Shown here one piece after another: positions 10,099 to 25,671 of a stretch of DNA of 25,671 bases (its first letter is position 1; each line of letters begins with the position of its first letter). The stretch lies in the IMG/VR virus record IMGVR_UViG_3300032242_000104, positions 1 to 25,671 of that record. The stretch is one strand, 5' to 3'. A program made the position numbers and the translations under genes. The notes beneath the pieces were generated by a model. That model had not been told where the DNA came from. It made no database searches and worked only from the letters and a program-made list of their open reading frames with translations. This stretch comes from a virus.

Positions 10099-11012
10099 GG
10101 TATAGCCACCCTAGTCTGTCCGGTGCGGTAGGCATCGGTACGCTCCATGCCATCGCCCAGACGTTTAGCCAGACCAAGAGCTTCAACGTACCGACCTTGG
10201 TACAGTTGCAGCATATCGGCCTCGCCTTTCATGAAGGTGTACGCCTCAAGCAGCGTTCCGTACAGCAGTACAGAATCAAAGTTGTCGCCCAACCACGAGG
10301 TGCCGTTTGCGTTATTTACTGTGGCCACGGTGACGGAGCAGGAAGTACCAGTGCCGCCAATGCTTGCAATCGGCACAGACAAAGAATCGCCAACTTTATA
10401 CAACGAACCACCATTGGCAATGGTTACCGAAGATACTGCGTTGGATGCTACTACTACGGTAGCCGTAGCGGCTGTGCCAGATCCGCCTGTCAAAGCCACG
10501 TTGTAATACGTGCCGTTGGTTAGCGAGCCAACAGAAGTGGGGGTATTAAATCCGGTAATGATGCCCTGCACAATGGACGGCGGGTAAAAGAAGTAGTGCA
10601 GCTCAAGACCGTAATTGGTTTCCGGAGTGGGGCCAATAATAAAAGTCAGCTCGTTGGGCACACTTGTCTGCGGGCCAAAAATGCCGTAGTACTTAGGTGT
10701 GCCTTTGATCGAGGGGTCAGGGTACGCTTCGCGCATGAAGTTGACGTCTTTATCCAGCAAGTAGCTGTAGATGCCAGTTGTCTGGTTGATAAGCGCGAGC
10801 GAATAGACCGCCAAAAAATCGTCGGGACAGGCAATATATTTGTTATTGGCTGTCGCCGTACCCGTCACGTTCTTGCGAAGTGCGGGGAACTGGATGGAGT
10901 TGAATACGCGCTGCTCAGCCTGCTGGACAAACGTAGGAATGTCGGCAACAAACGTAGACTCAGAGTTCTGAGTGTAGTCCTGTACAAGCTGAACGAGCTG
11001 CGCGTAATTCAT
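10095..11012 (-). CDS. Adaptor-like head-to-tail protein with inserted beta domain
   Basis: A 305-residue protein. Residues 1-150 (MNYAQLVQLVQDYTQNSEST, QQAEQRVFNSIQFPALRK, YSYLLDKDVNFMREAYPDPS) match a widespread phage family I relate to the adaptor of SU10-like podoviruses. That family is mostly helical and joins portal and tail. The C-terminus (GTSWLGDNFDSVLLYGTLLEAYTFMKGEAD, read in parts) belongs to the same core. Between them, at about 154-236, is a Gly/Thr/Val-rich segment with LTGGSGTAATATVVV and GGSLYKVGDSLSV that looks like an extra beta domain. Its ATG overlaps the preceding stop. The adaptor function is inferred from family resemblance. Confidence 0.75.
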   Translation of the reverse strand: MNYAQLVQLVQDYTQNSESTFVADIPTFVQQAEQRVFNSIQFPALRKNVTGTATANNKYIACPDDFLAVYSLALINQTTGIYSYLLDKDVNFMREAYPDPSIKGTPKYYGIFGPQTSVPNELTFIIGPTPETNYGLELHYFFYPPSIVQGIITGFNTPTSVGSLTNGTYYNVALTGGSGTAATATVVVASNAVSSVTIANGGSLYKVGDSLSVPIASIGGTGTSCSVTVATVNNANGTSWLGDNFDSVLLYGTLLEAYTFMKGEADMLQLYQGRYVEALGLAKRLGDGMERTDAYRTGQTRVAIP

Positions 11013-11281
11013 GCCATCGGGCCTCGGGCCATAACGCCTTTAGTGGCAGCGCCAGTTCCACGGATTTTGATGCCGGTGGTCTCGATGCTGTCGTTGATGC
11101 CAATGCTTACGCCGTTAGGCACGGGGTCTTCCAAGCTCACTTGGTCAGCCACTTTCTTGGTCATATATTCCTTGCGTGGAATACTGCCGTCAATAGCTTG
11201 GCCTTTGGAGTTATGCGGCTGGGCGTAAACGGACGCTGGCCCGTTTTCTTTACCCATGCTTTTGGAGCTGAACTTAGCCAT
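11009..11281 (-). CDS. Small conserved phage protein
   Basis: A 90-residue protein starting MAKFSSKSMGKENGPASVYA. The C-terminal end (GIKIRGTGAATKGVMARGPM) is basic and glycine-rich and loosely recalls the RGKTxG elements in the cassette at 13.5-14.9 kb. The start shares a TAATG junction with the gene before it and has AGGGG upstream; its stop overlaps the adaptor ATG. No known domain. Its placement suggests a virion or assembly role. Confidence 0.72.
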   Translation of the reverse strand: MAKFSSKSMGKENGPASVYAQPHNSKGQAIDGSIPRKEYMTKKVADQVSLEDPVPNGVSIGINDSIETTGIKIRGTGAATKGVMARGPMA

Positions 11282-11547
11282 TATTTACCCCTTGAAGAAC
11301 TGCGCTGGTTGGCAACGCGCGCCATATTGCGACCCATAGACCGCATAGCTTGTCCTGTGACTCCGCCTTTGGCCATGCGATCCAAACCGCCTTTTTTGAG
11401 GACGATCTTGGTGCCCTTGCCACCTTTGTGCTCTTGCATGTCATGCTCTTTAAACGCCTTCTTAATCATAGCGACGTCTTGTTTCTTGTCCATCTTCTCT
11501 TCGCGTTTTTGCTCAGACTTGGACTCGCCCATTTCTTTCTTGGCCAT
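11281..11547 (-). CDS. Small Lys-rich protein with AKGG motif
   Basis: An 88-residue, strongly basic protein. The N-terminal half (MAKKEMGESKSEQKREEKMD) is charged and helical. The C-terminal half has EHKGGKGTKIVLKKGGLDRM, AKGGVTGQAMRSMGRNMARV and a SSSRGK end. AGGAG precedes the ATG. The KKGG/AKGG pattern recurs in other short proteins of this window. Probably nucleic-acid binding or virion-internal by composition; function unknown. Confidence 0.7.
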   Translation of the reverse strand: MAKKEMGESKSEQKREEKMDKKQDVAMIKKAFKEHDMQEHKGGKGTKIVLKKGGLDRMAKGGVTGQAMRSMGRNMARVANQRSSSRGK

Positions 11548-11947: not shown

Positions 11948-12895
11948 TTATCCGCCCGAACCTATGTACATACGGCGCGGCACAAACCGCACGGAGGCTT
12001 TTTCTCGATCCTCGTCGGACGCCAACTGCCAAGCCTCATCATACTGGGCCTTCAAAATTGGCAAGCGCTCCAACGAATTTGGAATCTTGAGCGCCATGTA
12101 GTAGGCCAGCCCCGCCACCATGCAAGTAATAAACCGGAAGGGTACGTCCATGACGTTGACGCCGGTGCCTGCGTCCTGCATGCGGCGCAGCCGCCAGTAC
12201 ACGAACTGATAAGTCGTGGAGCCATCCGGCGTTGGCCAGACGGTGATGCTGTTCTTTTGGGATAGGGTTAACACTGCCCCAGAATTGTGCGAAGCCGCCG
12301 TCGTTGTCCCTTGGCCGCGTGTGCAGTTGAGCAGGTAGGCGGGGGTTGTGGCGGTGGCCGCTTGGGTTTCGTTGAACCCGATCAGCTCTGAGTCGATAGT
12401 GACAAACCCGGCGGTAGGTACGCCGGAGAGGGAGGAAACTGGGATTTGGGTGGTAGCAGCGGTGATACCAGCTTGCAAACTCACCGGCAGGATGGAGTCC
12501 TGCGCTGTCAATCGTTGAATCCAAACTTGAATTGGCCGGGCTTGCACCAGCTTGTTTGGGATCGTGGCGTAGGTAGACACGCTGATCCGGGTGATATTCA
12601 AGTCGGCTTGGTTGTTGGGGGAGTTGGCGTTTGTGCGGATGACGTGCTCAAGCAAATCCACCGTGTCGTCCGGCAGCGCGTAGGTTGGCTGGCCTTGTAC
12701 TAGGGTGATTGTCTGCTGCTCAAACGTCCACATGTTGATGCCACGATTGGCCCAATCCGCAAACAAAAGGTTCAAAGACCGGCGTGCAGTACGCAGGTCA
12801 TAACCAGTGCGCAACTCGGAGCCCGCACGCTCATACGCTTCCTCTACGATTTCCGTGAGGTCGATATTAAACGCGGCTGCTCCAGAGGTGGTCAT
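11948..12895 (-). CDS. Connector/adaptor-like structural protein with inserted domain
   Basis: A 315-residue protein. The N-terminus (IDLTEIVEEAYERAGSELRT, then TARRSLNLLFADWANRGINM and QGQPTYALPDDTVDLLEHVI) matches a phage family placed between portal and tail, related in layout to podovirus gp4/gp11-type head-completion proteins. The core resumes with ITVWPTPDGSTTYQFVYWRL near residue 217. At about 131-212 there is an extra segment with VSSLSGVPTAGFVTIDSELI and LNCTRGQGTTTAASHNSGA, a beta module known from many unrelated phage proteins. Its ATG overlaps the preceding TGA (ATGA). Function is inferred from family pattern. Confidence 0.75.
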   Translation of the reverse strand: MTTSGAAAFNIDLTEIVEEAYERAGSELRTGYDLRTARRSLNLLFADWANRGINMWTFEQQTITLVQGQPTYALPDDTVDLLEHVIRTNANSPNNQADLNITRISVSTYATIPNKLVQARPIQVWIQRLTAQDSILPVSLQAGITAATTQIPVSSLSGVPTAGFVTIDSELIGFNETQAATATTPAYLLNCTRGQGTTTAASHNSGAVLTLSQKNSITVWPTPDGSTTYQFVYWRLRRMQDAGTGVNVMDVPFRFITCMVAGLAYYMALKIPNSLERLPILKAQYDEAWQLASDEDREKASVRFVPRRMYIGSGG

Positions 12896-13068
12896 TTTTT
12901 CAGCCCTTTAAGGGTCATAGCAAGTCGTGCTTGCTTACCGGTTGTTCCCGACGACTTTGCTGCTTTTGCCAGTTTGCCTGCGGGAATTGGTTGACCCTCT
13001 TTAGCGCCAAGTTTCTTGCGTAAAGCACCGGGGTGCTTGATCGCTTTCTGTATCCATTTTTCAGCCAT
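12892..13068 (-). CDS. Small basic protein, 58 aa
   Basis: A 58-residue protein found by reading the gap between neighbouring genes. It begins MAEKWIQKAIKHPGALRKKL and ends with RLAMTLKGLKK. It has 15 Lys/Arg-dominated positions through the middle and a KLAKAAKSSGTTGKQ stretch. The start shares a TAATG junction with the preceding gene, and its TGA overlaps the ATG of the adaptor-like gene. Proteins with this PGALRK...LAKAAKS pattern recur in phages and some large viruses. Function is unknown; DNA or virion binding is plausible from charge. Confidence 0.8.
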   Translation of the reverse strand: MAEKWIQKAIKHPGALRKKLGAKEGQPIPAGKLAKAAKSSGTTGKQARLAMTLKGLKK

Positions 13069-13301
13069 TATCTAAACCCCGCTGTTTTCTTTGCAATGGT
13101 TTTGGGTTGCGCCACAAACTGTTTACCTGCCGCTTTGCCTGCACGTTTGGCCTTGGTGGTAGCTGCGTATTCGGCGGGGCTAAGAGATTTTATGGCCTTT
13201 TCCGGCAGATATCGCTCCCCCGTCTTGCTAGACGGTTTGCCAGATTTGGTGCGCCATTTTTGCGCTGTCCAATCCTTGAGCGATTGCTGCGGTGCTTTCA
13301 A
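13068..13301 (-). CDS. Small basic conserved protein
   Basis: A 77-residue protein with SLKDWTAQKWRTKSGKPSSK, GERYLPEKAIKSL and SPAEYAATTKAKRAGKAAGK, ending KTIAKKTAGFR. I recognise the pattern from a family shared by phages and large DNA viruses (I believe a DUF5872-type entry, not verified). The fold and function are unknown. It overlaps its upstream neighbour by ATGA and hands over to the 58-residue gene by TAATG, so the three short genes are coupled. Confidence 0.78.
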   Translation of the reverse strand: MKAPQQSLKDWTAQKWRTKSGKPSSKTGERYLPEKAIKSLSPAEYAATTKAKRAGKAAGKQFVAQPKTIAKKTAGFR

Positions 13302-13573
13302 TCTCTATAATCTCCGCCAGCAGCCTTGTACTTCTTGGCTACAAGCTGCGCCTTACGCGCTGACCACTGGCCTGCCTTGGTGCCTTGGGTGGCTGCGGCT
13401 TTTACTTTGGACACAATCTGCTTGCGCAGACTGGGCTTTGTGTAATTCCCCGCAGCATTAACACCGCCGCCCTTGGCGAACTGCTCAAAGTCAGTATCGT
13501 CGCGGCGAGCAACGCGCTTGCCCTTGGGCATTTTTGAGGGATTGACGTCCCCCATCCCACGGCTGGCCATCAT
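13298..13573 (-). CDS. Small basic protein with AKGGG and YRD end
   Basis: A 91-residue protein (or 90 from the second of two adjacent ATGs). The middle has EQFAKGGGVNAAGNYTKPSL, and the C-terminal half has KAGQWSARKAQLVAKKYKAA and ends GGDYRD. The second half matches a recurring phage family with GQWSARKAQ and GGGYRD features, function unknown. The ATG overlaps the stop of the preceding gene. It carries the KGG-type motif seen in several neighbours. Confidence 0.78.
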   Translation of the reverse strand: MMASRGMGDVNPSKMPKGKRVARRDDTDFEQFAKGGGVNAAGNYTKPSLRKQIVSKVKAAATQGTKAGQWSARKAQLVAKKYKAAGGDYRD

Positions 13574-14019
13574 AGGTACTTTCCACGAGTTTTACCCCGT
13601 TGGGCAATACCATCGGCACGACTGGAAGCACTGTACACTTTGCCGCCTTTTTTCATACCAAGCATATTGTCTGTGATTTTGCCCGGAGTGTCACTCCCGT
13701 AGAGTGAGTTGTCACGTTCTTTGTAATTGGCGGAATCTTGGGCTTCTTGCAAACGACGCTGACGGTCGGACTCACGTTGAGCGGCCAAAGCATCCGCTGC
13801 ATCCTGCTGCCGTTTTGCGCTGGGGGAGCCCGCAAGAGAGCGCATAATACCCCCCGCCACATCTTGGCTGCGTTGGGTAAAAGTATCGCCTGCGGCGGCG
13901 GCTTCCTGCGCTTCTTTCAGACGTGCGCGTTTGGCTAAATCCAAATTTTGTTTTTCACCACGCGACAGGTTGTCGTATTTTTTTAAATACGTTTCGTCGT
14001 CTGATAATTTTGTAGCCAT
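13570..14019 (-). CDS. Small charged protein ending in SSRADGIAxRGKT motif
   Basis: A 149-residue protein starting MATKLSDDETYLKKYDNLSR. The middle is a charged, Ala/Gln/Arg-rich helix (about 20-100) likely to form a coiled coil. The C-terminus has MKKGGKVYSA followed by SSRADGIAQRGKTRGKYL (132-149). This last element is almost identical to the end of the next gene downstream and similar to an internal part of the gene at 14467. AAGAG lies 6 bases before the ATG. Function unknown; see findings on the shared motif. Confidence 0.75.
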   Translation of the reverse strand: MATKLSDDETYLKKYDNLSRGEKQNLDLAKRARLKEAQEAAAAGDTFTQRSQDVAGGIMRSLAGSPSAKRQQDAADALAAQRESDRQRRLQEAQDSANYKERDNSLYGSDTPGKITDNMLGMKKGGKVYSASSRADGIAQRGKTRGKYL

Positions 14020-14028
14020 GATTAACTC

Positions 14029-14259
14029 TTAGCAAAACTTACCAACGGTTTTACCGCGAGAAGCAATTCCGTCAGCGCGGCTGGAGGCGGAACCGCCCGA
14101 AGCCATTTTCTTAACACCGCCGCCACGCTTCATGCCGGGGGCTCCACCCATAGCGGGGGGAGCTGCGCCCATATCAGGCGCAGCAGCGGGTGCAGCAGAA
14201 GGAGCGGCCATAGCCGCCATCATTGCCGGGGGAATGCGGCGGGCTTTACGTGTGGCCAT
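14029..14259 (-). CDS. Small Ala/Pro/Met-rich protein ending in SSRADGIAxRGKT motif
   Basis: A 76-residue protein. After a basic start (MATRKARRIPPAMMAAMAAP), it has a low-complexity Ala/Pro/Met/Gly segment (about 10-42), then MKRGGGVKKM and the C-terminal SSRADGIASRGKTVGKFC (59-76). AAGGA precedes the ATG. The translation start context (TTAATCATGGC) and first residues MAT-K/R are shared with the gene at 13570-14019, so the two may be paralogues that diverged in the middle. Function unknown. Confidence 0.75.
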   Translation of the reverse strand: MATRKARRIPPAMMAAMAAPSAAPAAAPDMGAAPPAMGGAPGMKRGGGVKKMASGGSASSRADGIASRGKTVGKFC

Positions 14260-14268
14260 GATTAATCC

Positions 14269-14457
14269 TTACTTGCGAGTCATGCCGCCACCGCACATCG
14301 CTTTGACGTGATCGGCGTGCATCTTGTGACCAGCAGCGTGCGGACGCATGAAGTCATTGTGGTGCTTATGCCCTGCGGCGTGCGGCATCACAAATTCGTT
14401 GTTCATCTTGTGAGCAGGGGTCGGCTCTTTCATCAGGGGTGGGTGATCCATTTTCAT
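14269..14457 (-). CDS. Small His/Met-rich repeat protein
   Basis: A 62-residue protein with repeats of a PHAAGHKxH element: MPHAAGHKHHNDFM and then RPHAAGHKMHADHVKAM. It ends CGGGMTRK. It contains about ten His and about ten Met, unusual beside its Lys-rich neighbours. AAGGAG is a good ribosome binding site. The GGG-M-basic end recalls the KxGG ends of the neighbours. Metal binding is possible from composition only; no family recognised. Confidence 0.7.
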   Translation of the reverse strand: MKMDHPPLMKEPTPAHKMNNEFVMPHAAGHKHHNDFMRPHAAGHKMHADHVKAMCGGGMTRK

Positions 14458-14466
14458 AATTACTCC

Positions 14467-14856
14467 TTACTTGCGGACTTTGCCGCCGCGTTTCATACCA
14501 GTATCGGAACCAGCCATCTTGGGCATCATACCCTTGGTCTTGCCGCGCTCAGCAATACCATCACGGCTGGGGGCTGCGGTTTTTACCTTACCCATTGACT
14601 TGCTATCTGCTACCATTTTTTTCGTTGCCATAAGTCCACCTTTTGCAAATATAGCCTCTTTACCGTGATCGGTCTTTGGCCGGTTAACGCCTTCTACGCT
14701 AGGCCGAGTGTACCCACCTGACCCAAACTTCTTGCCTTTGTCGGCTTGGAGGAAGTCCTCCCCGACGCTCTGCTTGATACCAACCTTCTTGGCAAACGCA
14801 GGGTTCTTGGCCACTGCTGCCATCAGGTTGTGTTGTTTCTTACTCGTCGAGGGCAT
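14467..14856 (-). CDS. Small basic protein, DUF3008-like N-terminus
   Basis: A 129-residue protein. The N-terminal part (MPSTSKKQHNLMAAVAKNPA, then KVGIKQSVGEDFLQADKGKK) matches a short conserved family I recall as DUF3008-like, found in phages and bacteria. It then has FAKGGLMATKKM, the element APSRDGIAERGKTKG (95-109) and a MKRGGKVRK end. So it combines a conserved N-domain with the motif shared by the genes at 13570 and 14029. Its start overlaps the end of the upstream gene by 17 bases. Function unknown. Confidence 0.78.
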   Translation of the reverse strand: MPSTSKKQHNLMAAVAKNPAFAKKVGIKQSVGEDFLQADKGKKFGSGGYTRPSVEGVNRPKTDHGKEAIFAKGGLMATKKMVADSKSMGKVKTAAPSRDGIAERGKTKGMMPKMAGSDTGMKRGGKVRK

Positions 14857-15045: not shown

Positions 15046-15291
15046 TCAGCAATTCCAAGCCCGAAGGCTCTTGTTTATACGTGAATTCGGATCTTTGGCC
15101 GTCTTCTCGCTGGTAAGTTTTTTCTTCATCCCAGTCATCCTTGCGCAAAAGGAGTCGCGCCGTTTGCCGCCTTCCGGCTGGGGAGGTTTCAAATTCATAC
15201 CTTGCTTTTTGGCCGAGGCCCGCCCCTTGGCGTTGAGGCCACCCTTCTCCGACTTGCCTTCTTTGCGAGTCCATGCTGGTGACTTAGCCAT
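15046..15291 (-). CDS. Small basic conserved protein (DUF6321-like)
   Basis: An 81-residue protein starting MAKSPAWTRKEGKSEKGGLN, then AKGRASAKKQG, LKPPQPEGGKRRDSFCARM and a KDPNSRINKSLRAWNC end. This pattern (AWTRKEGK, GGLNAKGR, RRDSFxARM, SLRAW) is a strongly conserved phage and large-virus family that I recall as DUF6321, name not verified. I placed the start at the second ATG (15291), which overlaps the preceding gene by 8 bases. Function is unknown; its basic character fits a virion or DNA-associated protein. Confidence 0.82.
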   Translation of the reverse strand: MAKSPAWTRKEGKSEKGGLNAKGRASAKKQGMNLKPPQPEGGKRRDSFCARMTGMKKKLTSEKTAKDPNSRINKSLRAWNC

Positions 15292-15775
15292 AGAACACCG
15301 TAGCAGCAATGTTGGCAGGAACGCCTACATAAATACCATCAGTGGCCAAAATACCTTCGCCGGGGATGGTTACACAAACAGGCACGCTGTTTGTGATATC
15401 AACTTCCATCAACGCTTGCGCATAGACCGACACATTACCAGTTCCTGACGAAGACGGTACAGTTGCTGTAAATGTGGTCGGGCCTGTGACGGTGATTGTG
15501 TAGATGTTGTCTGTGCCATTGCCAGAGGTGTAATCCAAAAACACGCGAGCGCCAGTTGTAAGCCCGTGTCCAGCGGCAACAGTAACAGTAACAGTTGTCG
15601 TCGAAATGCTGTATGTGCCAGCCAAAGCTACGTTGTTGGCAAAAAACACATTTGCCGGTGTACCGGATGTGGTGTTTGAAACAACCGCGCCTTTTAAACG
15701 AGTGCGGGTTGTAGTGCCCACGCTAGACGTGCTGGTCTGAACGTGAAACGACTTTACGTCGGTTTGCATTCCCAT
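15284..15775 (-). CDS. Head-associated structural protein with inserted beta module
   Basis: A 163-residue protein starting MGMQTDVKSFHVQTSTSSVG. It ends ATDGIYVGVPANIAATVFYG, a pattern shared by small phage virion proteins. Between them a VTVTVAAGHGLTTGARVFLD and NIYTITVTGPTTFTATVPSS segment (about 59-110) looks like a separate beta module also seen in other tail and head proteins. AGGAG precedes the ATG. It is the second gene of the promoter-driven block, after the hairpin at 15793-15812. Confidence 0.75.
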   Translation of the reverse strand: MGMQTDVKSFHVQTSTSSVGTTTRTRLKGAVVSNTTSGTPANVFFANNVALAGTYSISTTTVTVTVAAGHGLTTGARVFLDYTSGNGTDNIYTITVTGPTTFTATVPSSSGTGNVSVYAQALMEVDITNSVPVCVTIPGEGILATDGIYVGVPANIAATVFYG

Positions 15776-16609: not shown

Positions 16610-16637
16610 AATATACACTATTTTTGGGCCGTGTCAA
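16610..16637 (-). promoter_or_regulatory. Sigma70-type promoter for the minus-strand structural block
   Basis: On the minus strand, TTGACA (16632-16637, consensus -35) and TATATT (16610-16615, one mismatch to consensus -10) are separated by 16 bases. Transcription would begin near 16603 and leave about 80 bases of leader before the ATG at 16520. The -35 lies just upstream of the HNH start codon on the other strand. It is the best promoter match I see in the window. Confidence 0.8.
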
Positions 16638-16638
16638 C

Positions 16639-17019
16639 ATGCCGTACAAAGATCCCGCAAAACGCAAGGAAATGGGTAAAATTTATTCTGCCCGGCACTA
16701 TGCAGCCAACGCCAAGGAACACAAGACACAGGTAAAGAAAAACAGGAAAGCGAGCAAGGAAAAATGGAGCGCATACAAAGCAACCCTGATGTGCAACCAA
16801 TGTGGGATATCACACCCCGCCGTTATAGATTTCCACCATCCCCCCGGTACAAAAGAATACAGTGTCCACGAGCTGGCAAAAAATGGCCGGTTCAAAAAAG
16901 CATACAAGGAAGCCGAGAAGTGCGTAATCCTGTGTGCTAACTGCCACCGAATCCACCACCATAACGAGCGCTTAGCCAAGAAAATGGGGGCCGAAGCCCC
17001 CACGGATTACTCACTGTAG
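16639..17019 (+). CDS. HNH endonuclease
   Basis: A 126-residue protein and the only supported plus-strand gene. The start MPYKDPAKRKEMGKIYSARH is typical for free-standing phage HNH proteins, so I prefer it to the ATG 15 bases upstream; no good ribosome binding site is visible for either. The domain shows MCNQCG (C52, C55), VIDFHH (H66, H67), then CVILCANCHRIHHH (C99, C102, H103, H106). This is a zinc-bound HNH fold with the catalytic His in the DFHH motif. It nicks or cuts DNA, either as a selfish homing enzyme or, in some phages, with the terminase. Being inverted and between virion genes, a selfish origin is more likely. Confidence 0.9.
   Translation: MPYKDPAKRKEMGKIYSARHYAANAKEHKTQVKKNRKASKEKWSAYKATLMCNQCGISHPAVIDFHHPPGTKEYSVHELAKNGRFKKAYKEAEKCVILCANCHRIHHHNERLAKKMGAEAPTDYSL
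16981..17002 (-). terminator. Terminator hairpin with TTCG loop behind the acidic gene
   Basis: On the minus strand a 7-bp stem (TGGGGGC with GCCCCCA, 16985-17002) with a TTCG loop is followed by TTTTCTT. It lies inside the HNH coding region on the other strand (codons for GAEAP). Sixteen bases (16986-17001) are identical to the core of the hairpin at 15795-15810. Confidence 0.7.
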
Positions 17020-17028: not shown

Positions 17029-17334
17029 TTACGCAGCGACTTCTTCCTCTTCGTCTTCTGCCTCGTCTTCGTCGTCCTCAAGGTCAACTTCAACCCAGTC
17101 GTCTTCGTCAGCGTCATACATGTACCAGACTTCGTTTTCTTCGTCCAGCCAGTACGCATTGCCTTCTTCGTCGTAGGCGTACTCTTCCTCGTCTTCTTCG
17201 TCATCGGCTACTTCTTCGTCGATGCCTTCCATGCGCTCAACGAAACTGGCCATAGCCACGGTCTTCCAAAATTCGGTGGTGTTGAATTCAACTTTCTCGC
17301 CAAAACCAAAATCAATAGTCAACGTAAATTCCAT
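17029..17334 (-). CDS. Extremely acidic small protein
   Basis: A 101-residue protein with 44 Asp/Glu and 3 Lys/Arg by my count, giving a net charge near -41. The start at 17334 (MEFTLTIDFGFGEKVEFNTT) has AGGGG 6-7 bases before it; an ATG 45 bases upstream is less likely. The first 35 residues are a normal mixed sequence. The remainder is acidic, with aromatic-bearing units such as AYWLDEENEVWYMYDADEDD and an EDEEEE tail. It is flanked by terminators on both sides, so it is separate from the capsid transcript. DNA mimicry, histone-like or capsid-binding functions are possible; none is shown. Confidence 0.78.
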   Translation of the reverse strand: MEFTLTIDFGFGEKVEFNTTEFWKTVAMASFVERMEGIDEEVADDEEDEEEYAYDEEGNAYWLDEENEVWYMYDADEDDWVEVDLEDDEDEAEDEEEEVAA

Positions 17335-17423
17335 GATATTCCCCTGTAAAAATGGTGCAGCACGGCGCTGCAAAAGCATCCTACCAAGAATCCCGGCAGC
17401 TTGTGTGACAGTTTTCGGACAAT

Positions 17424-17484: not shown

Positions 17485-18396
17485 TTAGTATGAACCGGCC
17501 GAGCCGTAGATGCCCAGAGGATCAGACCAGCCGAAACTGTAACGCTCACGAGACTTGTAACGGACGTTGCCGGTATCGAAGTCGCCGTCCATGCTGTTTT
17601 GCAGGGCAACGCGCTCGAAGTGCTTCAAACCGTTAGGTACGTCTGTGGTCAGGAACCAAGCGTTGGTGTCGGTCAAGAAGTGGTTAACGGTGTATCCCTC
17701 GGGGATCGAGCCGTTGTTCTTCAAGGCGTTGATGTCGTTGTTGTTTGTACCAACGCGCAGTTCTGTTTCCAGCAGGCGGGTAGCAACGAACATCAAAGCA
17801 GGCGGGATTACCAACTTGCGTGGCTTAGCAGCGATCAACAGACCACGCTCGTCCGTCCAAGCAGCGATCTGGATAACGGCGGCTTCCAAAGAAGTCTCGT
17901 TCAGATCGGCAGCAGTGGTGGGAGTGTTGCTGTTGGTGCCGCCATTGACCAGCGGGTGAGCAGTGCTGAACAGAGCTTGGCCGTCGCCGCCAACGTATTG
18001 GGACGAGAAACCGTTGTTCAAAACAGCAGCAGCTTTAACCTGCTTGGTGTACGCCATAGCACGGGCCAGACCTTTGGTGTAACGAGCAGACAGGCTGTCG
18101 TACAGGTTGTCCTCAATCGCCTCTTCGGTGATCGAGAAGCCCAAGGCGATGGTCTCGTGGTTGTAGCGAGCAGTCCATGCTTCCTGTGCATTGTCATACT
18201 GGATGGCTTGGCCCTCGTTCTTGACAGGTGCAGCAGAGAAACCAGACAGCTTGGTCTCTTCTTCAAAACTACGCTCCGATGTCTCGGTTTCGTAGAATTC
18301 TTTATGCTCTTCGCCGTAGCGGGCATATTCCAGACCAAACAAAGCGTTAAGTCCGGGGAGCAGCTCTTTAAGTAGCTGTGCGCGTGAAATAGCCAT
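17485..18396 (-). CDS. Major capsid protein
   Basis: A 303-residue protein expected to have the HK97 fold. The motif ALFSTAHPLVNGGTNSN (about 141-157) is characteristic of capsid proteins in the Mu gpT-like group. The middle (IAAWTDERGLLIAAKPRKLV, then PPALMFVATRLLETELRVGT) and the C-terminal RERYSFGWSDPLGIYGSAGS also fit. The ribosome binding site AAGGAG is 9 bases before the ATG, and a strong terminator follows. No N-terminal scaffold domain is evident and a separate scaffold gene is present upstream, with no protease seen. It should assemble the procapsid with the portal and scaffold. Confidence 0.88.
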   Translation of the reverse strand: MAISRAQLLKELLPGLNALFGLEYARYGEEHKEFYETETSERSFEEETKLSGFSAAPVKNEGQAIQYDNAQEAWTARYNHETIALGFSITEEAIEDNLYDSLSARYTKGLARAMAYTKQVKAAAVLNNGFSSQYVGGDGQALFSTAHPLVNGGTNSNTPTTAADLNETSLEAAVIQIAAWTDERGLLIAAKPRKLVIPPALMFVATRLLETELRVGTNNNDINALKNNGSIPEGYTVNHFLTDTNAWFLTTDVPNGLKHFERVALQNSMDGDFDTGNVRYKSRERYSFGWSDPLGIYGSAGSY

Positions 18397-19732: not shown

Positions 19733-20662
19733 TTAAGCCTCCAATTTCATTACTTGAGCAGCATACTGCTGCGGGGTTAAACCAAACTTCTTTGCCAACG
19801 CCATCTGCGTTGTAGTTAGCTTGATCTTGCCTGTCGCGGTTGAGCGCGACGCTGAAGCAACTACCGTTGACGGTCTTTTCGCGGCTGTAGCCGAAGATCT
19901 GTTTTCAGTTTCGCCGAATAACTCGGGGAACTTTGACTTCACGCGAGCGTTAATTTGCTCGAAATACTCATCGCTGCTCGGGCTTACGCCTGAGTTGACT
20001 AGCTTCTGGTGCAGCCCTAGTGCATAGCTGGTGTACTCCTCGAATCCCGGAGCACCGAACCACTGGTTTCTTGCCTGCCAGCGCAGGGATTTTTCGTCGG
20101 GTGCGTCCGCTCGAGGTGCGGATTGCTGCGTTTGTACAGCAAATTCTGTTTCTTGTAAAGGTACCGTGCGGATTTTTTTCGCATTGTCTAACTGTACAGT
20201 GGCATTTGACAACATTGCTTGTGCTTCCACAATGGCATCGGTGTCAAAAGCTTCATGGGCGGCTTTAAGCTGTCGCTTGGCCGTTTCCAGATCAGAAGTA
20301 GCTTTCTCGACGGACGTCTTAACGTACGCCTCCTGCCCGGTGTTTACCGTCTTCTTGAGATGATTATTCTCGTAAATCAGGCGTTGGGCTAGATTTTCCA
20401 GCTCCTGCTTTTCCCGCAAAACGGCTTCTTTGACTCGGCGCTCGTCGTGGCGGGCGTGGGTCAACTCCTTGATGCGGTTCTTTACCTTGTCCGAATACGA
20501 TTCGATTTCGTCATCGGTAGGATCTAGTACCTCCCTGTCCAGCGGCTTGCGGCCTCTGTCCCGTTCGGGGGTATCGTCCTCGATTTCAATCTCGATGTCA
20601 GTACCGGCATCTACTTCGACTTTGGTGTTTTGCACCTCGTCGGGAAACTTAAACTCGTCCAT
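19733..20662 (-). CDS. Scaffolding-like protein
   Basis: A 309-residue charged protein. An acidic N-terminus (about 1-60, with DIEIEIEDDTPERDRGRKPL) is followed by long helices with coiled-coil character (about 60-170, with ELTHARHDERRVKEAVLREK and ETAKRQLKAAHEAFD). A Ser/Ala-rich linker comes before a compact C-terminal helical end (KLTTTQMALAKKFGLTPQQY). This organisation and the position before the capsid gene match phage scaffolding proteins that guide procapsid assembly and then leave. AAGGAG is the ribosome binding site. The function is inferred; no protease motif is present. Confidence 0.78.
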   Translation of the reverse strand: MDEFKFPDEVQNTKVEVDAGTDIEIEIEDDTPERDRGRKPLDREVLDPTDDEIESYSDKVKNRIKELTHARHDERRVKEAVLREKQELENLAQRLIYENNHLKKTVNTGQEAYVKTSVEKATSDLETAKRQLKAAHEAFDTDAIVEAQAMLSNATVQLDNAKKIRTVPLQETEFAVQTQQSAPRADAPDEKSLRWQARNQWFGAPGFEEYTSYALGLHQKLVNSGVSPSSDEYFEQINARVKSKFPELFGETENRSSATAAKRPSTVVASASRSTATGKIKLTTTQMALAKKFGLTPQQYAAQVMKLEA

Positions 20663-20671
20663 GTTTACTCC

Positions 20672-21106
20672 TTATGCGCGGGTGATTCCGCGTGGGTCGT
20701 CCACCACCGCATCGACTTGATCGTCGTTGATGAGGCGGAACTCTTTGCCGTAAATCTTGAGGCGCGTACCAGAATAGGTACGTGTGACCACAAAATCTCC
20801 GGGTTTGCACCAAGCTCCACTGGGGAATTTGGCGGGATCTTTGTACGCATCCGGGCCTACCTTCAAGACAAACAGCACCGTGGTGGCGTGTTCTTCCTGA
20901 CGGATGTAGGTGTCGGGGCGCTCCAGATCGAGGTCAGTACCAGACAGTTTTGTCGATACATCGGGCAGCACACACAGCAGCTTGTAGCCTGTCGGCTCAG
21001 GTAGCAGGGTGCCTTTTTCTTCAGCAGTCTCGTCGTCCTTTGGCACGTCCGTTGTTTGGATCATGGGTGGGAGGCTAAGACCGGGGGGCAAAATGATATT
21101 ACTCAT
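20672..21106 (-). CDS. GroES-like co-chaperonin
   Basis: A 144-residue protein (start at 21106; an ATG 48 bases earlier is possible). From about residue 35 it shows LPEPTGYKLLCVLPDVSTKL, then ATTVLFVLKVGPDAYKDPAK, WCKPGDFVVTRTYSGTRLKI and NDDQVDAVVDDPRGITRA. That is the co-chaperonin beta-barrel layout with the mobile loop region near 54-72. Phages such as T4 (gp31) carry a GroES replacement that works with host GroEL to fold the capsid protein. Placement before the scaffold and capsid genes supports that. It is longer than bacterial GroES (about 97), with a 30-residue N-terminal extension. Confidence 0.78.
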   Translation of the reverse strand: MSNIILPPGLSLPPMIQTTDVPKDDETAEEKGTLLPEPTGYKLLCVLPDVSTKLSGTDLDLERPDTYIRQEEHATTVLFVLKVGPDAYKDPAKFPSGAWCKPGDFVVTRTYSGTRLKIYGKEFRLINDDQVDAVVDDPRGITRA

Positions 21107-21293
21107 CTGATTTTTCGACTTTCTCTGCAAGGTCAATGACATAACGCTCTGCAACGGCTAGACCCTGAATAACGCCGCAGAGTTTTTGATACTCATCAAA
21201 AGTTCGACACACACCTCCCGCCAAGTCGTCCGCGTAGTTGTTCATGTCTTTACGTATTTGGTCGCGCAATACGTTTGCGAATTGTTGAATCAT
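21099..21293 (-). CDS. Small helical conserved protein downstream of portal
   Basis: A 64-residue helical protein starting MIQQFANVLRDQIRKDMNNY, with AGGVCRTFDEYQKLCGVIQG and ending DLAEKVEKSDE. It starts at a TAATG junction with the portal gene and overlaps the co-chaperonin start. I recognise the general type as a recurring small phage protein between portal and head genes, function unknown. Its amphipathic character suggests it binds another assembly protein. Confidence 0.75.
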   Translation of the reverse strand: MIQQFANVLRDQIRKDMNNYADDLAGGVCRTFDEYQKLCGVIQGLAVAERYVIDLAEKVEKSDE

Positions 21294-23797
21294 TACTCAG
21301 GTTTCTCCGGTTTAAAGTTGGCAATATGCTGCAAAGCGTCGCGTCGGGCGTCTGCCTGCTGCTGTACTTTGCTCTTGGCGACGTCGATGCCCATGCGGAC
21401 ACCTTCGCGTTCTTGCTGCGCGGCCAACTGGGCCTGCTGATATTTGATTTGGGAGCCCACTTTCATGGAGTCGAGCTGCAAATTGCCCGAAATCTTCTGC
21501 TGCTCCAAATTGAGCTGGTCTGCCTTGTGCGCTGCCTCGGTGGCCAGCTTGGCTTTCTTGAGCTGCAACTCCTGCTGCTTGATCTGCAATTCTTGCTGCT
21601 GCATCTGGACAAGCGGGTCTTGGGCTTGCTGCTGAGCCTGCGCTTGCGCTGCTTGGGCTTGATCTTGCATAAGTTGTTGTTGCGCTGCTTGGGCCATCAT
21701 GGTAGATAGCGCCAGCTCCAACTGCGGTGGCAGTTTCTCGTCCTCGGGCGGCATCGCCACGCCCATCTGCTTCTCGATGTTCTGGCGCATCTGGTAACCA
21801 ACGTGCTCGGCAATATGGGCCATCGTAGCTTGCATGATGAGGGCGGCTTGGGGGCTCTGGCCAATCTGCTGCTGGATAAGTGGGTCTTGCAACATAAACT
21901 GGTGCACGGCAATATGCGCCGCGTGGTTCTGGTACATAAATGCCTTGACCGGCTTGGCTTTGAGGATGGCTTGGTTCTCGGACACCGGGTCTTTGGGTTT
22001 GTAGTCCTCCTCGACCGGCACCAGCTTCTCGGCGTTTTTGATACCCATGACGTTAAGCATAGCGCGGTGCAGCTCGGGCAGGTCGTAGATCTGCGGAGCC
22101 ATCTGGGCCATCTGGATAACAGCTTGGTACTGCACAACCCGCTGGCTCATGGTAGCCGCATTTGGGTCGCTGACGGGGATGATGTCCACCAAGTCGTAGT
22201 CAGCCTTTTTGGCTTTGCGATCGCCGTACTCAGGATCAAAGGCGTACTCGGGCGCGGTGTTGTCGCGGATCAGCTCCTTGAGCAGCTTGAGTTCTTCCTT
22301 GAGCGCGAAGTGCACCCGGGCTTGGACGGCCGTCATCACTTTGAGCTGACGCTCCAGCAGGGCCAGCGTCGTGCCCACAGGCGCACCGGCTGCGCCCATG
22401 TCACTCATATTAGTATCAGCCGTGGCGGCAAACCGGCGACCTTCGTCCACGATGTTGCCCAGCAACTGGTACAAAACTTGCGACGGTTCTTTATATGGCA
22501 GCGGGAGGATGGAGTCCCGGATGCTGCCGCTGGCTACGTCTACGTCGCGGAATTCTCCCGGAGCGATTGGCGTATCATCGCCCTTAATGCGTAGTCCACG
22601 CGATTTAAGCCCTCCGGGGAGATTGCTGAGCGTCCCGGCATCGACAAGTTGTCGCATGATGCTTGTAGCCGACTTAGCAAACCCGCCAATGAGGTGGAAG
22701 AGGCCGAAGCCGTACGCCCCAAACCCCGGGATATATTGGTAGTGGACGAAGTGTTGGCGCTTGAGCTTGAGGTCATCATCTTCCTTCCAGTTGCGGCGAA
22801 TGGACAGTACCGTGTTGGTACCTTTGATTAGTGTTACTACGTAGGGCAGGGCGATGCCGGTCTCTTCGTCCTCGTCGTCCTTGTCCTCAAATCCGTCCAA
22901 GTCCAAGTCAACGTGGCACTCCAGCAACACATAACGGTCGTCGTTAATATCGCTGAACCCAGTCTCCTTGTCCTTGGCCTTCTTGATATCGTCCCGGTCA
23001 CGCGGTGGGTCGGGCAGATCGCAGTCGCAGTAGAACCCAGCAGCTTGTAGCTTGAGGATCTCGTTTTTGGTCTTGCGCATGACGTGCGTCAGGCGGCGGC
23101 AGGTATCCAAGTCAGTGGTGCCATAGGGCAACAAGATGTCCTCGGCTGGGACAAACATCGAGACCGGACGGCCAAGGGAAGGATCGTAATAGACCTTCTT
23201 GAACCCCGATCCGGCGCTGGGCAGGTTCCACGCCAGACGCTCATGCTCCGGGCGGAACTCCTTCATGACCTCGGTCAGGTCATAGTTCATGTCGTCCTCG
23301 ACGTTGGACGCAGCCTCGCGCACTTCCTCGGTCTCTTTGCCCAAAATTTTGGTACGCACCGGGCCGCTGGCCGGGAACGTCTCGGTAATCATCTCAGCTT
23401 GGAAGCGGACAACTGCCTCGGTAATCAGGGGGTGGAACACGCCGCAAGCGCCATCCCACGGTTCTGTGCGTTCTTCGATCTGGAGGCCCAGCAGTTTCAA
23501 CCCCTCGACGATGCCCTTCTCCCACTCCTTGCGGGAGTTCTTGTCGTTGTCGATGTCCGAGGACAGATCGCCAGCTACGGTTTGCAGGACACTGTCGGGA
23601 AGGAAATCTGCAAGGTTGGAGTCAAAGTCTTCCTCGCCTTTGTCTTCCTCTTTGCCAAGGCTGATCTCGACGTCGCCCATCTTGATGTTCATCTCCTCCG
23701 GGTCGACTACCTCGATCTCCAGCGGTGACTCCTGCTCAGCCATCTGCGCGATCCCTACCGGTGCGCCGTACAGGCTCTTGTCCATATTGGTTGCCAT
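21293..23797 (-). CDS. Portal protein
   Basis: An 834-residue protein that forms the ring through which DNA is packaged and to which the tail attaches. Family features include the N-terminal DWEKG-like region (KNSRKEWEKGIVEGLKLLGL), ERTEPWDGACGVFHPLITEA, VPAEDILLPYG, GFGAYGFGLFHLIGGFAKSA and PYKEPSQVLYQLLGNIVDEG. The last 130 or so residues are Gln/Ala/Lys-rich coiled coil (QQQELQIKQQELQLKKAKLA), like the barrel of long podovirus portals. AAGGA precedes the ATG. The terminase is immediately upstream, and the small helical gene follows at a TAATG junction. Confidence 0.92.
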   Translation of the reverse strand: MATNMDKSLYGAPVGIAQMAEQESPLEIEVVDPEEMNIKMGDVEISLGKEEDKGEEDFDSNLADFLPDSVLQTVAGDLSSDIDNDKNSRKEWEKGIVEGLKLLGLQIEERTEPWDGACGVFHPLITEAVVRFQAEMITETFPASGPVRTKILGKETEEVREAASNVEDDMNYDLTEVMKEFRPEHERLAWNLPSAGSGFKKVYYDPSLGRPVSMFVPAEDILLPYGTTDLDTCRRLTHVMRKTKNEILKLQAAGFYCDCDLPDPPRDRDDIKKAKDKETGFSDINDDRYVLLECHVDLDLDGFEDKDDEDEETGIALPYVVTLIKGTNTVLSIRRNWKEDDDLKLKRQHFVHYQYIPGFGAYGFGLFHLIGGFAKSATSIMRQLVDAGTLSNLPGGLKSRGLRIKGDDTPIAPGEFRDVDVASGSIRDSILPLPYKEPSQVLYQLLGNIVDEGRRFAATADTNMSDMGAAGAPVGTTLALLERQLKVMTAVQARVHFALKEELKLLKELIRDNTAPEYAFDPEYGDRKAKKADYDLVDIIPVSDPNAATMSQRVVQYQAVIQMAQMAPQIYDLPELHRAMLNVMGIKNAEKLVPVEEDYKPKDPVSENQAILKAKPVKAFMYQNHAAHIAVHQFMLQDPLIQQQIGQSPQAALIMQATMAHIAEHVGYQMRQNIEKQMGVAMPPEDEKLPPQLELALSTMMAQAAQQQLMQDQAQAAQAQAQQQAQDPLVQMQQQELQIKQQELQLKKAKLATEAAHKADQLNLEQQKISGNLQLDSMKVGSQIKYQQAQLAAQQEREGVRMGIDVAKSKVQQQADARRDALQHIANFKPEKPE

Positions 23798-23806
23798 GAT
23801 CTGTCC

Positions 23807-25348
23807 TTAGTAATATGCAGCCCGCCTGCGGCGGAATAGGGAGGGCTCGTCCTTCTCGTCCGAGTCCAAAGGAATAAACCCGCCTTGGCGAAACCGCAGC
23901 AAGGCTTGGGATGTCGTATCCACAAAGTCGTCATTATCACCGTTCGGGAAGGCCGCGACCTCCTCGATCACCTCCCGAGCCCAGCGTGTATCTGGTGCCC
24001 AGACTTTACCCGAACTGAATAAATCCGCAATGGCGTTCACGCGCACGATCTTGTCGTTGCCCCGGCTGGGGCTGAACTCCTGCACCGGTATGCCCATCGA
24101 CCGAAGTTCTTGGATCAGCGGCGCACCAGCGGCTTTCTTCTCCACGATGAACGCATCGGGCTCCCATTCTTTATAGTGCTTGAGCGCAGCGGCCTTTAGC
24201 TCGGGGAACTCCATGCGCTCCTTGAACGCGTCGAGCAGGATGACCTGCGCCTCGTCCTTCTCTTCCTCGTTGTAGAACACGCCCCACGTTGTACAGGCGG
24301 AATAGTCCGCCCGGTTCTTGGCCTCGAACGCCGTGTCCCATGACTGGATGATGTACTCGCACGGGGGAGGATCGTCACTTGGCCAGACCCGCCAGAGTTT
24401 GCGGGAGATGATCGCCGCCGCGTTGGAAGTTGGCTGTTGCATGTACTGGGCGTTCCAATACTGCGGGTCGATGCTGGCCTTTGTCGCCTTGAGCTGCTCC
24501 AGTGGCCACTGCTCTGGCCAAAGCGATTTCTCGTTCTCTTCGCCTTCGTTGAGGATGGCTGGCAGCTCCACAATCTCCCACGGCACTGCCTGCGGGTTTT
24601 TGGTTTGGTAGTCGATCAGCCGTCCGGTCAGGTCAAGTTTGCCCCAGCGCGTCATGATGACAATGATCGCTCCGCCCGGCATCAAGCGCTGCAACGGGCC
24701 AGTCTGGAACCACGACCACGCGGTATCGAACGCCAGTCGGCTGTTAGCCTTTACATCTTGCTCGGAGTGAGGATCGTCAATAACAAAAAGATCAGCACCA
24801 CGACCGGCAAGAGCGCCACCCACACCAGCAGCGTAATACTGTCCGCCAGCAGCTGTAGACCACTTGCCAGCTGCTTTTTGGTCTGACGCGACAAGCGTCT
24901 CTGGAAAAATCCCATGATATTCCTCCGTGTCCAAAAGGTTCCTTATCCTGCGGCCAAAGTCCTCGGACAGACCCGCCGTGTGCGTGGCCATGATGATCTT
25001 CTTGTTGGGGAACTTGCCAAGGAAGTATGCGGGGAACAGGTAGCTGCTGAACTCGGACTTGCCCATACGCGGCGCGATGTTGATGATAACCCGCTTCTTC
25101 TTGCCCTCGATCACGTCGGTAAATATCTTGGCCAGCTTTTTGTGGTGCGGCCCGATCTTGAACCCCGGGTAGACCTCCGTGGCGAATCCCAGCATATTAG
25201 TCTTGGCCGCTACCAAAGAGGCGCGGCGCTCCCGAACCTCCAAATCATCCAGCAACTCCATCTTGTCCGCCAATGACATACTAGGAAGCGCCGCCTGTAT
25301 TGCAGCAATCTCCCGGGGAGTCAGCGTGGTGAACTGGTTAAGGTGCAT
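23807..25348 (-). CDS. terL: Terminase large subunit (ATPase and nuclease)
   Basis: The DNA-packaging motor, 513 residues from the start at 25348 (an ATG 60 bases upstream inside the small subunit gene is possible; no clear ribosome binding site for either). The ATPase domain has a Walker A variant APRMGKSE (92-99), Walker B LFVIDDP (187-193) and the coupling motif IMTRW (231-235). The RNase H-like nuclease has QSWDTAF (D338), FIVEKKA (E403) and DNDDFVDTTSQAL (D474, D477). Length and motifs match complete large terminases. It overlaps the small subunit gene by 11 bases and is followed by the portal gene. Confidence 0.95.
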   Translation of the reverse strand: MHLNQFTTLTPREIAAIQAALPSMSLADKMELLDDLEVRERRASLVAAKTNMLGFATEVYPGFKIGPHHKKLAKIFTDVIEGKKKRVIINIAPRMGKSEFSSYLFPAYFLGKFPNKKIIMATHTAGLSEDFGRRIRNLLDTEEYHGIFPETLVASDQKAAGKWSTAAGGQYYAAGVGGALAGRGADLFVIDDPHSEQDVKANSRLAFDTAWSWFQTGPLQRLMPGGAIIVIMTRWGKLDLTGRLIDYQTKNPQAVPWEIVELPAILNEGEENEKSLWPEQWPLEQLKATKASIDPQYWNAQYMQQPTSNAAAIISRKLWRVWPSDDPPPCEYIIQSWDTAFEAKNRADYSACTTWGVFYNEEEKDEAQVILLDAFKERMEFPELKAAALKHYKEWEPDAFIVEKKAAGAPLIQELRSMGIPVQEFSPSRGNDKIVRVNAIADLFSSGKVWAPDTRWAREVIEEVAAFPNGDNDDFVDTTSQALLRFRQGGFIPLDSDEKDEPSLFRRRRAAYY

Positions 25349-25671
25349 CGGGGACGAGGGGTTTGAGTTCTGCTTCGATCGGCTCGGCGTCTTGGATGTC
25401 CACCACATCCACCACCTGCATGAACTTGGCCAGCTTGTCTTTGATCCGCTGCTCCAACTGCAAGTCGGTCAGCTCGTCCTTCTTAATCTCGATCTTGTCG
25501 GTGAACAGCCCAACCTCTGTAACTTTGCCCAGCAACCCGAGCGCTTTGAGTCGGATGTTGGCGTTGGTACTTTGGGTTTCCTCGACCAGCTTGGCTACCG
25601 CGTAACCCCGAAGCTCCTTGGCCTGCTGTACAAATTCCCAGTCATAAGCAGTAAGCATGCCGACAATGTGC
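25338..25671 (-). CDS. terS: Terminase small subunit, 5' end outside window
   Basis: At least 111 residues are visible. There is an ATG at 25658 (MLTAYDWEFVQQAKELRGYA), but the frame stays open to the window edge (HIVG before it), so a longer protein with an upstream DNA-binding HTH is likely. The segment VAKLVEETQSTNANIRLKAL, then GLLGKVTEVGLFTDKIE and a LEQRIKDKLAKFMQVVDVVD helix, matches small terminase families that recognise the packaging site. It directly precedes and overlaps the large subunit gene. The assignment rests on family pattern and on this neighbourhood. Confidence 0.82.
   Translation of the reverse strand, partial: HIVGMLTAYDWEFVQQAKELRGYAVAKLVEETQSTNANIRLKALGLLGKVTEVGLFTDKIEIKKDELTDLQLEQRIKDKLAKFMQVVDVVDIQDAEPIEAELKPLVPDAP

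Follow-up and report, generated by a model that had tools for sequence, protein, structure and literature searches.

Three adjacent small genes in the window (the whole stretch of 25,671 nucleotides analyzed here, an IMG/VR virus record in which tail genes are present beside the head genes) encode proteins that share a short peptide tag. The tag is maintained by selection on otherwise unrelated, small, basic proteins encoded next to the head genes of one capsid lineage of phages. We consider the chances about even that it is a portable recruitment signal, which brings these proteins to the head during assembly.

An earlier note on this DNA had reported the motif in three adjacent short proteins. 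All three copies are confirmed: the minus strand encodes them in proteins of 149, 76, and 129 amino acids that have SSRADGIAxRGKT in common (Table 1). In the 149- and 76-aa proteins the tag forms the end of the protein and is preceded by MKKGG or MKRGG; in the 129-aa protein another 20 residues, MKRGG among them, come after it. The flanking element that had been pointed out is thus present in each case, before the tag in two proteins and after it in the third. The tag block sits between the DUF6321 gene and three small basic genes ahead of the adaptor gene, an order that recurs in long related contigs, and the other small proteins of the block are likewise basic and Lys-rich.

Table 1. Tagged genes, tag copies, and surrounding structural genes of the window
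Feature	Position	Strand	Remark
90-aa protein with related C-terminal tag (type ii)	11009..11281	minus	...KIRGTGAATKGVMARGPMA at 11012-11068; element RGTGAATKGVMARGPMA
88-aa K/G-rich protein	11281..11547	minus	C-terminal part like a small family that is tag-led in relatives
SU10-type adaptor (head-tail connector) gene	11948..12895	minus	closes the block
Three small basic proteins (phrog_17747, phrog_14910, phrog_20603)	12892..13573	minus	between tag block and adaptor gene
149-aa small basic protein with C-terminal tag (type i)	13570..14019	minus	ends ...MKKGGKVYSASSRADGIAQRGKTRGKYL
Tag copy 1	13573..13632	minus	SASSRADGIAQRGKTRGKYL-COOH, end of 149-aa protein
76-aa small protein with C-terminal tag (type i)	14029..14259	minus	ends ...MKRGGGVKKMASGGSASSRADGIASRGKTVGKFC
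Tag copy 2	14032..14091	minus	SASSRADGIASRGKTVGKFC-COOH, end of 76-aa protein
129-aa protein: conserved N-terminal three-helix module, probably disordered tail, internal tag	14467..14856	minus	contains ...APSRDGIAERGKTKGMMPKMAGSDTGMKRGGKVRK
Tag copy 3	14530..14571	minus	PSRDGIAERGKTKG, 20 residues before C-terminus of 129-aa protein
N-terminal module of 129-aa protein, residues 1-43	14728..14856	minus	MPSTSKKQHNLMAAVAKNP...
DUF6321 protein adjoining head genes	15046..15309	minus	without tag here; in relatives tag appended after ...SLRAWNC
HK97-fold major capsid protein	17485..18396	minus	conservation unusually high (82-90% across 18 long contigs with the tag)
Terminase large subunit, portal, weakly Cpn10/GroES-like protein, scaffold-position protein	19733..25408	minus	scaffold role assigned from position only

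The three tagged genes match no Pfam family above the cut-off. The PHROG matches of the 149-aa protein all have E > 0.05, and the 76-aa protein has none; the only significant PHROG match among the three comes from residues 1-43 of the 129-aa protein, whose matches include two families named 'virion structural protein'. These residues are 72% identical to phiKZ PHIKZ165.1, and the module is shared with further jumbo-phage relatives of that protein; the PHIKZ165.1-type proteins differ, however, in being short, without tag, and from jumbo myoviruses. An AlphaFold2 model of the 129-aa protein, computed with 38 relatives, shows three confident helices at residues 6-38 (block-mean pLDDT 89-96). The tag-bearing tail of the 129-aa protein is modeled with low confidence and is probably disordered, as expected of a linear motif.

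The DNA of the motif had been described as silently diverged, and 8 of the 10 codons that differ between copies 1 and 2 are indeed synonymous. The same holds more widely: over 119 same-contig copy pairs, 72% of the differing codons are synonymous, compared to ca. 26% expected for random single substitutions. Copies differ by 10.9 of 39 bases within a contig and by 12.4 between contigs. Since the divergence within contigs nearly equals that between them, gene conversion does not explain the likeness of the copies, and a DNA-level repeat or gene conversion is rejected as the origin of the pattern. Purifying selection acts on the tag peptide, without strong gene conversion.

The proteins that carry the tag are, on the other hand, of many kinds. 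Grouping of 384 proteins with the tag masked gave 102 body families at E 1e-3 and 122 at E 1e-5, of which 73-88 have a single member; these counts are upper estimates because the bodies are of low complexity. Simple duplication of one gene is rejected, as the bodies do not align after masking; the full-length alignment that the earlier note had named as fatal to its tag idea is replaced by some 100-120 families. Together with the synonymous excess, this diversity of bodies strongly supports a short linear motif that selection maintains on small proteins otherwise unrelated to one another. Within the block, conservation of the tag can far exceed that of the protein bearing it.

The bodies are basic (mean charge +7, only 3% acidic), poor in W, F, and C (Cys 0.12%), apparently disordered, and devoid of enzyme domains. 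Of 70 tagged proteins, two had a Pfam match, each to a family whose function is not known, and a PADLOC search of 70 tagged proteins matched no family. In relatives of the window phage the DUF6321 protein also receives the tag, at its C-terminal side. DUF6321 (PF19846) comprises small basic proteins of aquatic phages, occurs either by itself or as the C-terminal portion of a larger protein, and adjoins the capsid gene also in the unrelated phages P-SCSP1k and HTVC022P. It thus resembles the tag as a short basic element beside head genes, but it is a separate domain of ca. 80 residues, after which the tag is added in this phage group. As a further observation, the bodies in many loci reuse short modules (FSEAFRAARKAGDxTFxWxGKxYxT, IVTKEELxKSGMSLRDFLN, DLTGDGKITRADVLKGRGVF, and AGAGRG), as though they were assembled from a set of linear motifs.

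At least 119 IMG/VR stretches match a degenerate DNA pattern encoding ADGIAx[KR]GKTx[KR]G, which sets no distance to the stop codon. With a related protein regex, 120 of the 235 ORFs among the matches listed end exactly 14 residues after the start of the Asp, a fixed distance that answers the question raised earlier of a position near the C-terminus. Most other tag copies belong either to a family ending ...GK(T/M)VKMxxGG(K)AC or to a protein of 58-64 residues (the 61-aa family) that starts with the tag; the small family resembling the C-terminal part of the 88-aa window protein likewise starts with it in relatives (MAYTRSADGIAKKGKTEGKNLGDSGP...MGRNMARANNQ). Because the tag is internal or N-terminal in two families, a free C-terminus is not always needed.

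The motif is not found mainly outside phage structural operons: all 119 tag-selected loci among the matches listed hold structural genes of the window, and 116 hold three or more. The same DNA pattern gave four matches only in 84,980 bacterial and archaeal genomes (257 Gb), by which a cellular or host origin of the tag is rejected. Two of these (L126 and L128) are phage-like contigs with the genes of this phage, one (L129) is a chance match within a 610-aa ORF, and in the last (L127) the tag profile gave no match.

A control set of loci was picked by the capsid protein rather than by the tag, and a tag profile with a threshold of E ≤ 1e-3 found 77 ORFs in it; reversed and column-shuffled profiles found 0. 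All 77 share the strand of the capsid gene and lie 1.3-8.2 kb downstream of it, which bears out the co-occurrence with capsid genes that had been put forward for checking, and no tagged ORF was found in the 447 kb upstream of the capsid gene in these loci. The tag is carried by 31 of the 33 capsid-selected loci that span DUF6321 to the adaptor, the other two having degenerate remnants only (...GIEIKGKTKGKM in L206 and ...SIQERGHTRAL in L197). Twenty records of 16-87 kb each have the exact motif in a single cluster of at most 2.7 kb and nowhere else. Among isolated phages, a tblastn search with the 28-residue tag gave one weak match only. A 309-aa protein of Planktothrix phage Pag-Yong1, UMO75986.1, ends in GRDGCAKRGRTKGRFI, a degenerate type i tag at the same C-terminal distance that was found only by reading the genes of relatives; no tag was seen in the region examined of HTVC027P and several other relatives. 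Our literature search found nothing on a phage ADGIA motif, RGKTRGK, DUF6321, or Pag-Yong1.

The consensus of the tag (type i) is SSASxRADG[I/C]AxRGKT[RK]G[KR]x-COOH, with A-D-G-[IC]-A near-invariant. Residue frequencies were tabulated for tags from the capsid-selected loci, where DG at -14/-13 is itself the selection rule. In this set D(-14), G(-13), and T(-6) never vary and G(-8) and G(-4) hardly do, position -7 is Lys in 83%, His in 10%, and Arg in 2%, and positions -9, -5, and -3 swap Lys and Arg freely. The last residue of C-terminal copies is almost always Val, Cys, Ile, Leu, or Tyr. A side observation concerns cysteine, which is present at -12 (DGC) or as the final residue, and in only 1 of 197 tags at both places (Fisher p = 2e-9, kinship among tags ignored); such alternation may point to redox chemistry, dimerization, or metal binding.

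The mean tag charge of +5, added to that of the bodies, invites the reading that both bind nucleic acid, as histone-like counter-ions that condense phage DNA either inside the head or within the cell, the tag being a DNA-binding motif. The scarcity of acidic bodies and the Lys-rich character of the other small proteins of the block agree with this. A motif driven by charge would, however, allow Lys/Arg exchange everywhere, as -9, -5, and -3 do, whereas Arg is rare at -7, T(-6) is invariant, and the ADG[IC]A half is nearly so; the hydrophobic or Cys last residue and the fixed C-terminal distance also speak against it. Because several positions (K(-7), T(-6), D(-14), and G(-13)) are specific beyond charge, charge alone does not explain the conservation and DNA binding fits less well as the main job of the tag; we consider this reading unlikely. 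Of the functions proposed in the earlier note, packaging or capsid binding would be the best fit, and DNA binding has lost ground. A decoration of the outside of the particle is less likely still. Here the tag would anchor proteins on the capsid or cement, forming a basic disordered fringe for attachment to particles, mucus, or negative cell envelopes. The tagged genes do occupy the position of the annotated cement gene in relatives, upstream of the adaptor gene, and the bodies turn over fast, as in exposed host-facing proteins; no homology of the tagged proteins to known decoration proteins was found, however, and for the family of the 129-aa protein (family A) the matches of the N-terminal module are small phiKZ-like phage proteins rather than decoration proteins.

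Fast-changing bodies without known domains could also belong to early-infection or host-takeover effectors that share a host-cell localization signal and are merely located in the structural operon. This is improbable, as the genes lie in the head module, the exact tags cluster only there in the 20 long records, and no defense or counter-defense family was matched. The least probable of the readings is a C-terminal degron or protease-recognition signal, similar to the C-motifs of ClpX, that clears assembly helpers or times their loss. Nearly all C-terminal copies have a free nonpolar or Cys end after basic residues, as a ClpX-type degron does, and this end presumably resembles the MuA C-terminus recognized by ClpX. 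Such a signal does not, however, lead one to expect the conserved ADG[IC]A half, the internal copies of family A, or the N-terminal copies of the 61-aa family, and a generic degron should not be limited to one operon of one phage group.

Recruitment to the head is favored over these readings because of the operon position, the single capsid lineage, the conservation of the capsid protein, the tagging of DUF6321, and the family A module. A large group of aquatic podovirus-type phages would then use the normally C-terminal tag on a changing set of small, basic, and probably disordered proteins. While particles assemble, the tag would carry these proteins to the phage head, most likely into its lumen through contact with the conserved capsid shell or with a shell-bound assembly factor, and the cargo may neutralize or organize the packaged DNA or leave the head together with it. 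The presence of tagged proteins in the virion, the identity of the binding partner, and the action of the cargo are inferences.

By terminase and capsid, the nearest isolates of the window phage are Synechococcus phage MinM2 and Planktothrix phage Pag-Yong1 (capsid 71%), phage DSL-LC04, and the Pelagibacter phages HTVC023P and HTVC027P (ca. 63%). The capsid protein is 82-90% identical where the terminase is ca. 55%, a conservation that has other possible causes as well. Across the group, it is far more conserved (ca. 86%) than terminase and portal (55-58%), the reverse of what we had expected. The model of the window capsid has a conserved long N-terminal helix (residues 5-27), and its structural matches include phage capsids and encapsulins. 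In encapsulins, the targeting peptide sits in a pocket formed partly by the N-terminal helix of the shell. The window capsid protein contains no Cys.

Two known systems can be compared with such a recruitment signal. In phage T4, a short portable capsid-targeting sequence (CTS) directs different small proteins (the internal proteins IPI-III and Alt) into the prohead, via the core; it is N-terminal and is cleaved (PMC5694885). The likeness lies in the same short peptide being carried by several otherwise unrelated proteins. The T4 CTS, however, has 10-20 residues and is removed by the prohead protease, whereas the present tag is mostly C-terminal (N-terminal only in the one 61-aa family), has another sequence, and is found on far more bodies. 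No separate prohead protease gene was recognized among the window proteins scanned. In Family 1 encapsulins, short C-terminal peptides are carried by unrelated cargo encoded beside the gene of the HK97-fold shell, with the consensus SDGSLGIGSLKRS (PMC8346489). The phage tag is likewise a short C-terminal peptide on products of genes beside an HK97-fold shell gene; it does not contain this consensus and is not homologous in sequence, and the cargo is basic, apparently disordered, and encoded in a real phage, while encapsulin cargo consists of enzymes and ferritins. As membership fails on position for the former class and on consensus and cargo type for the latter, we claim only a similar way of working: judged by analogy, the tag most likely works like the T4 CTS or the encapsulin peptides and belongs to neither.

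The window also encodes a candidate sister tag. The C-terminal element of its 90-aa protein, RGTGAATKGVMARGPMA, is probably such a variant (type ii); its start lies 17 residues before the end of the protein in 100 of the 109 ORFs scanned. A third type (type iii), with the full form RGxGAAx[RK]GxxFxG[VI][FK]-COOH, is borne by many small proteins of sister marine phages (L241-L359). Among them are two proteins of Pelagibacter phage HTVC023P, gp32 with the ending RGVGAAIRGHKFIGVK and gp51 with RGGGAAVRGMGFKGVF. A scan for RGxGAAx[RK]GxxFxG gave at least 120 stretches. Among the matches listed, this element lies exactly 16 residues from the C-terminus in 114 of 122 ORFs and at 14, 15, or 17 in the other 8, and 117 of 119 loci carry the structural genes of the window, with a capsid ca. 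64% identical. The three types align as R-x-x-G-x-A-x-[RK]-G, followed by G, and on this alignment we read them as putative versions of one element.

On the capsid tree, the type i and type iii states require 3 changes, compared to 25 in shuffles, and the clade-wide tag type is partly just shared ancestry. One contig (L257) departs from this pattern. It sits inside the type i capsid clade and is type-i-like at 16 of 16 clade-discriminating capsid positions, and both of its tagged proteins bear tag iii, one of them on a PSTSKKQ (family A) body that is tagged with type i elsewhere. Since a homologous family A body here bears the sister tag, the tag is a swappable part, and the presence of tag iii with a type-i-like capsid means that capsid sequence alone does not set the tag type; a strict lock of tag type to capsid sequence is thereby weakened. 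Either one tag can stand in for another or the partner is not the capsid.

It is conceivable, although we lean somewhat against it, that the interchangeable tags built on R-x-x-G-x-A-x-[RK]-G constitute a general C-terminal cargo-loading code, which would fill or coat the heads of abundant aquatic podovirus-type phages with a large, fast-changing repertoire of small disordered proteins as a phage counterpart of encapsulin loading. If recruitment to the head is correct, one short peptide would allow a head association to be predicted for dozens of hypothetical proteins from phages that are very abundant in fresh water and in the sea, and the tag would provide a simple annotation rule and a ready-made means of loading proteins into phage shells. 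It would also allow one to test whether encapsulin-style loading has a living phage counterpart.

Some minor observations concern the neighborhood of the capsid gene and the isolates. Positions 16624-17019, on the plus strand and thus opposite to the structural operon, look like a small HNH-type endonuclease gene. Right after the capsid gene, positions 17029-17379 on the minus strand encode an extremely acidic protein of 116 residues, matched in only 3 of the fetched loci. Finally, MinM2, Pag-Yong1, and Pra-JY27 (OQ594354.1, OL906435.1, and PP438419.1) are each exactly 65,014 bp long with identical match scores and are ascribed to different cyanobacterial hosts, so the host assignment may deserve checking.
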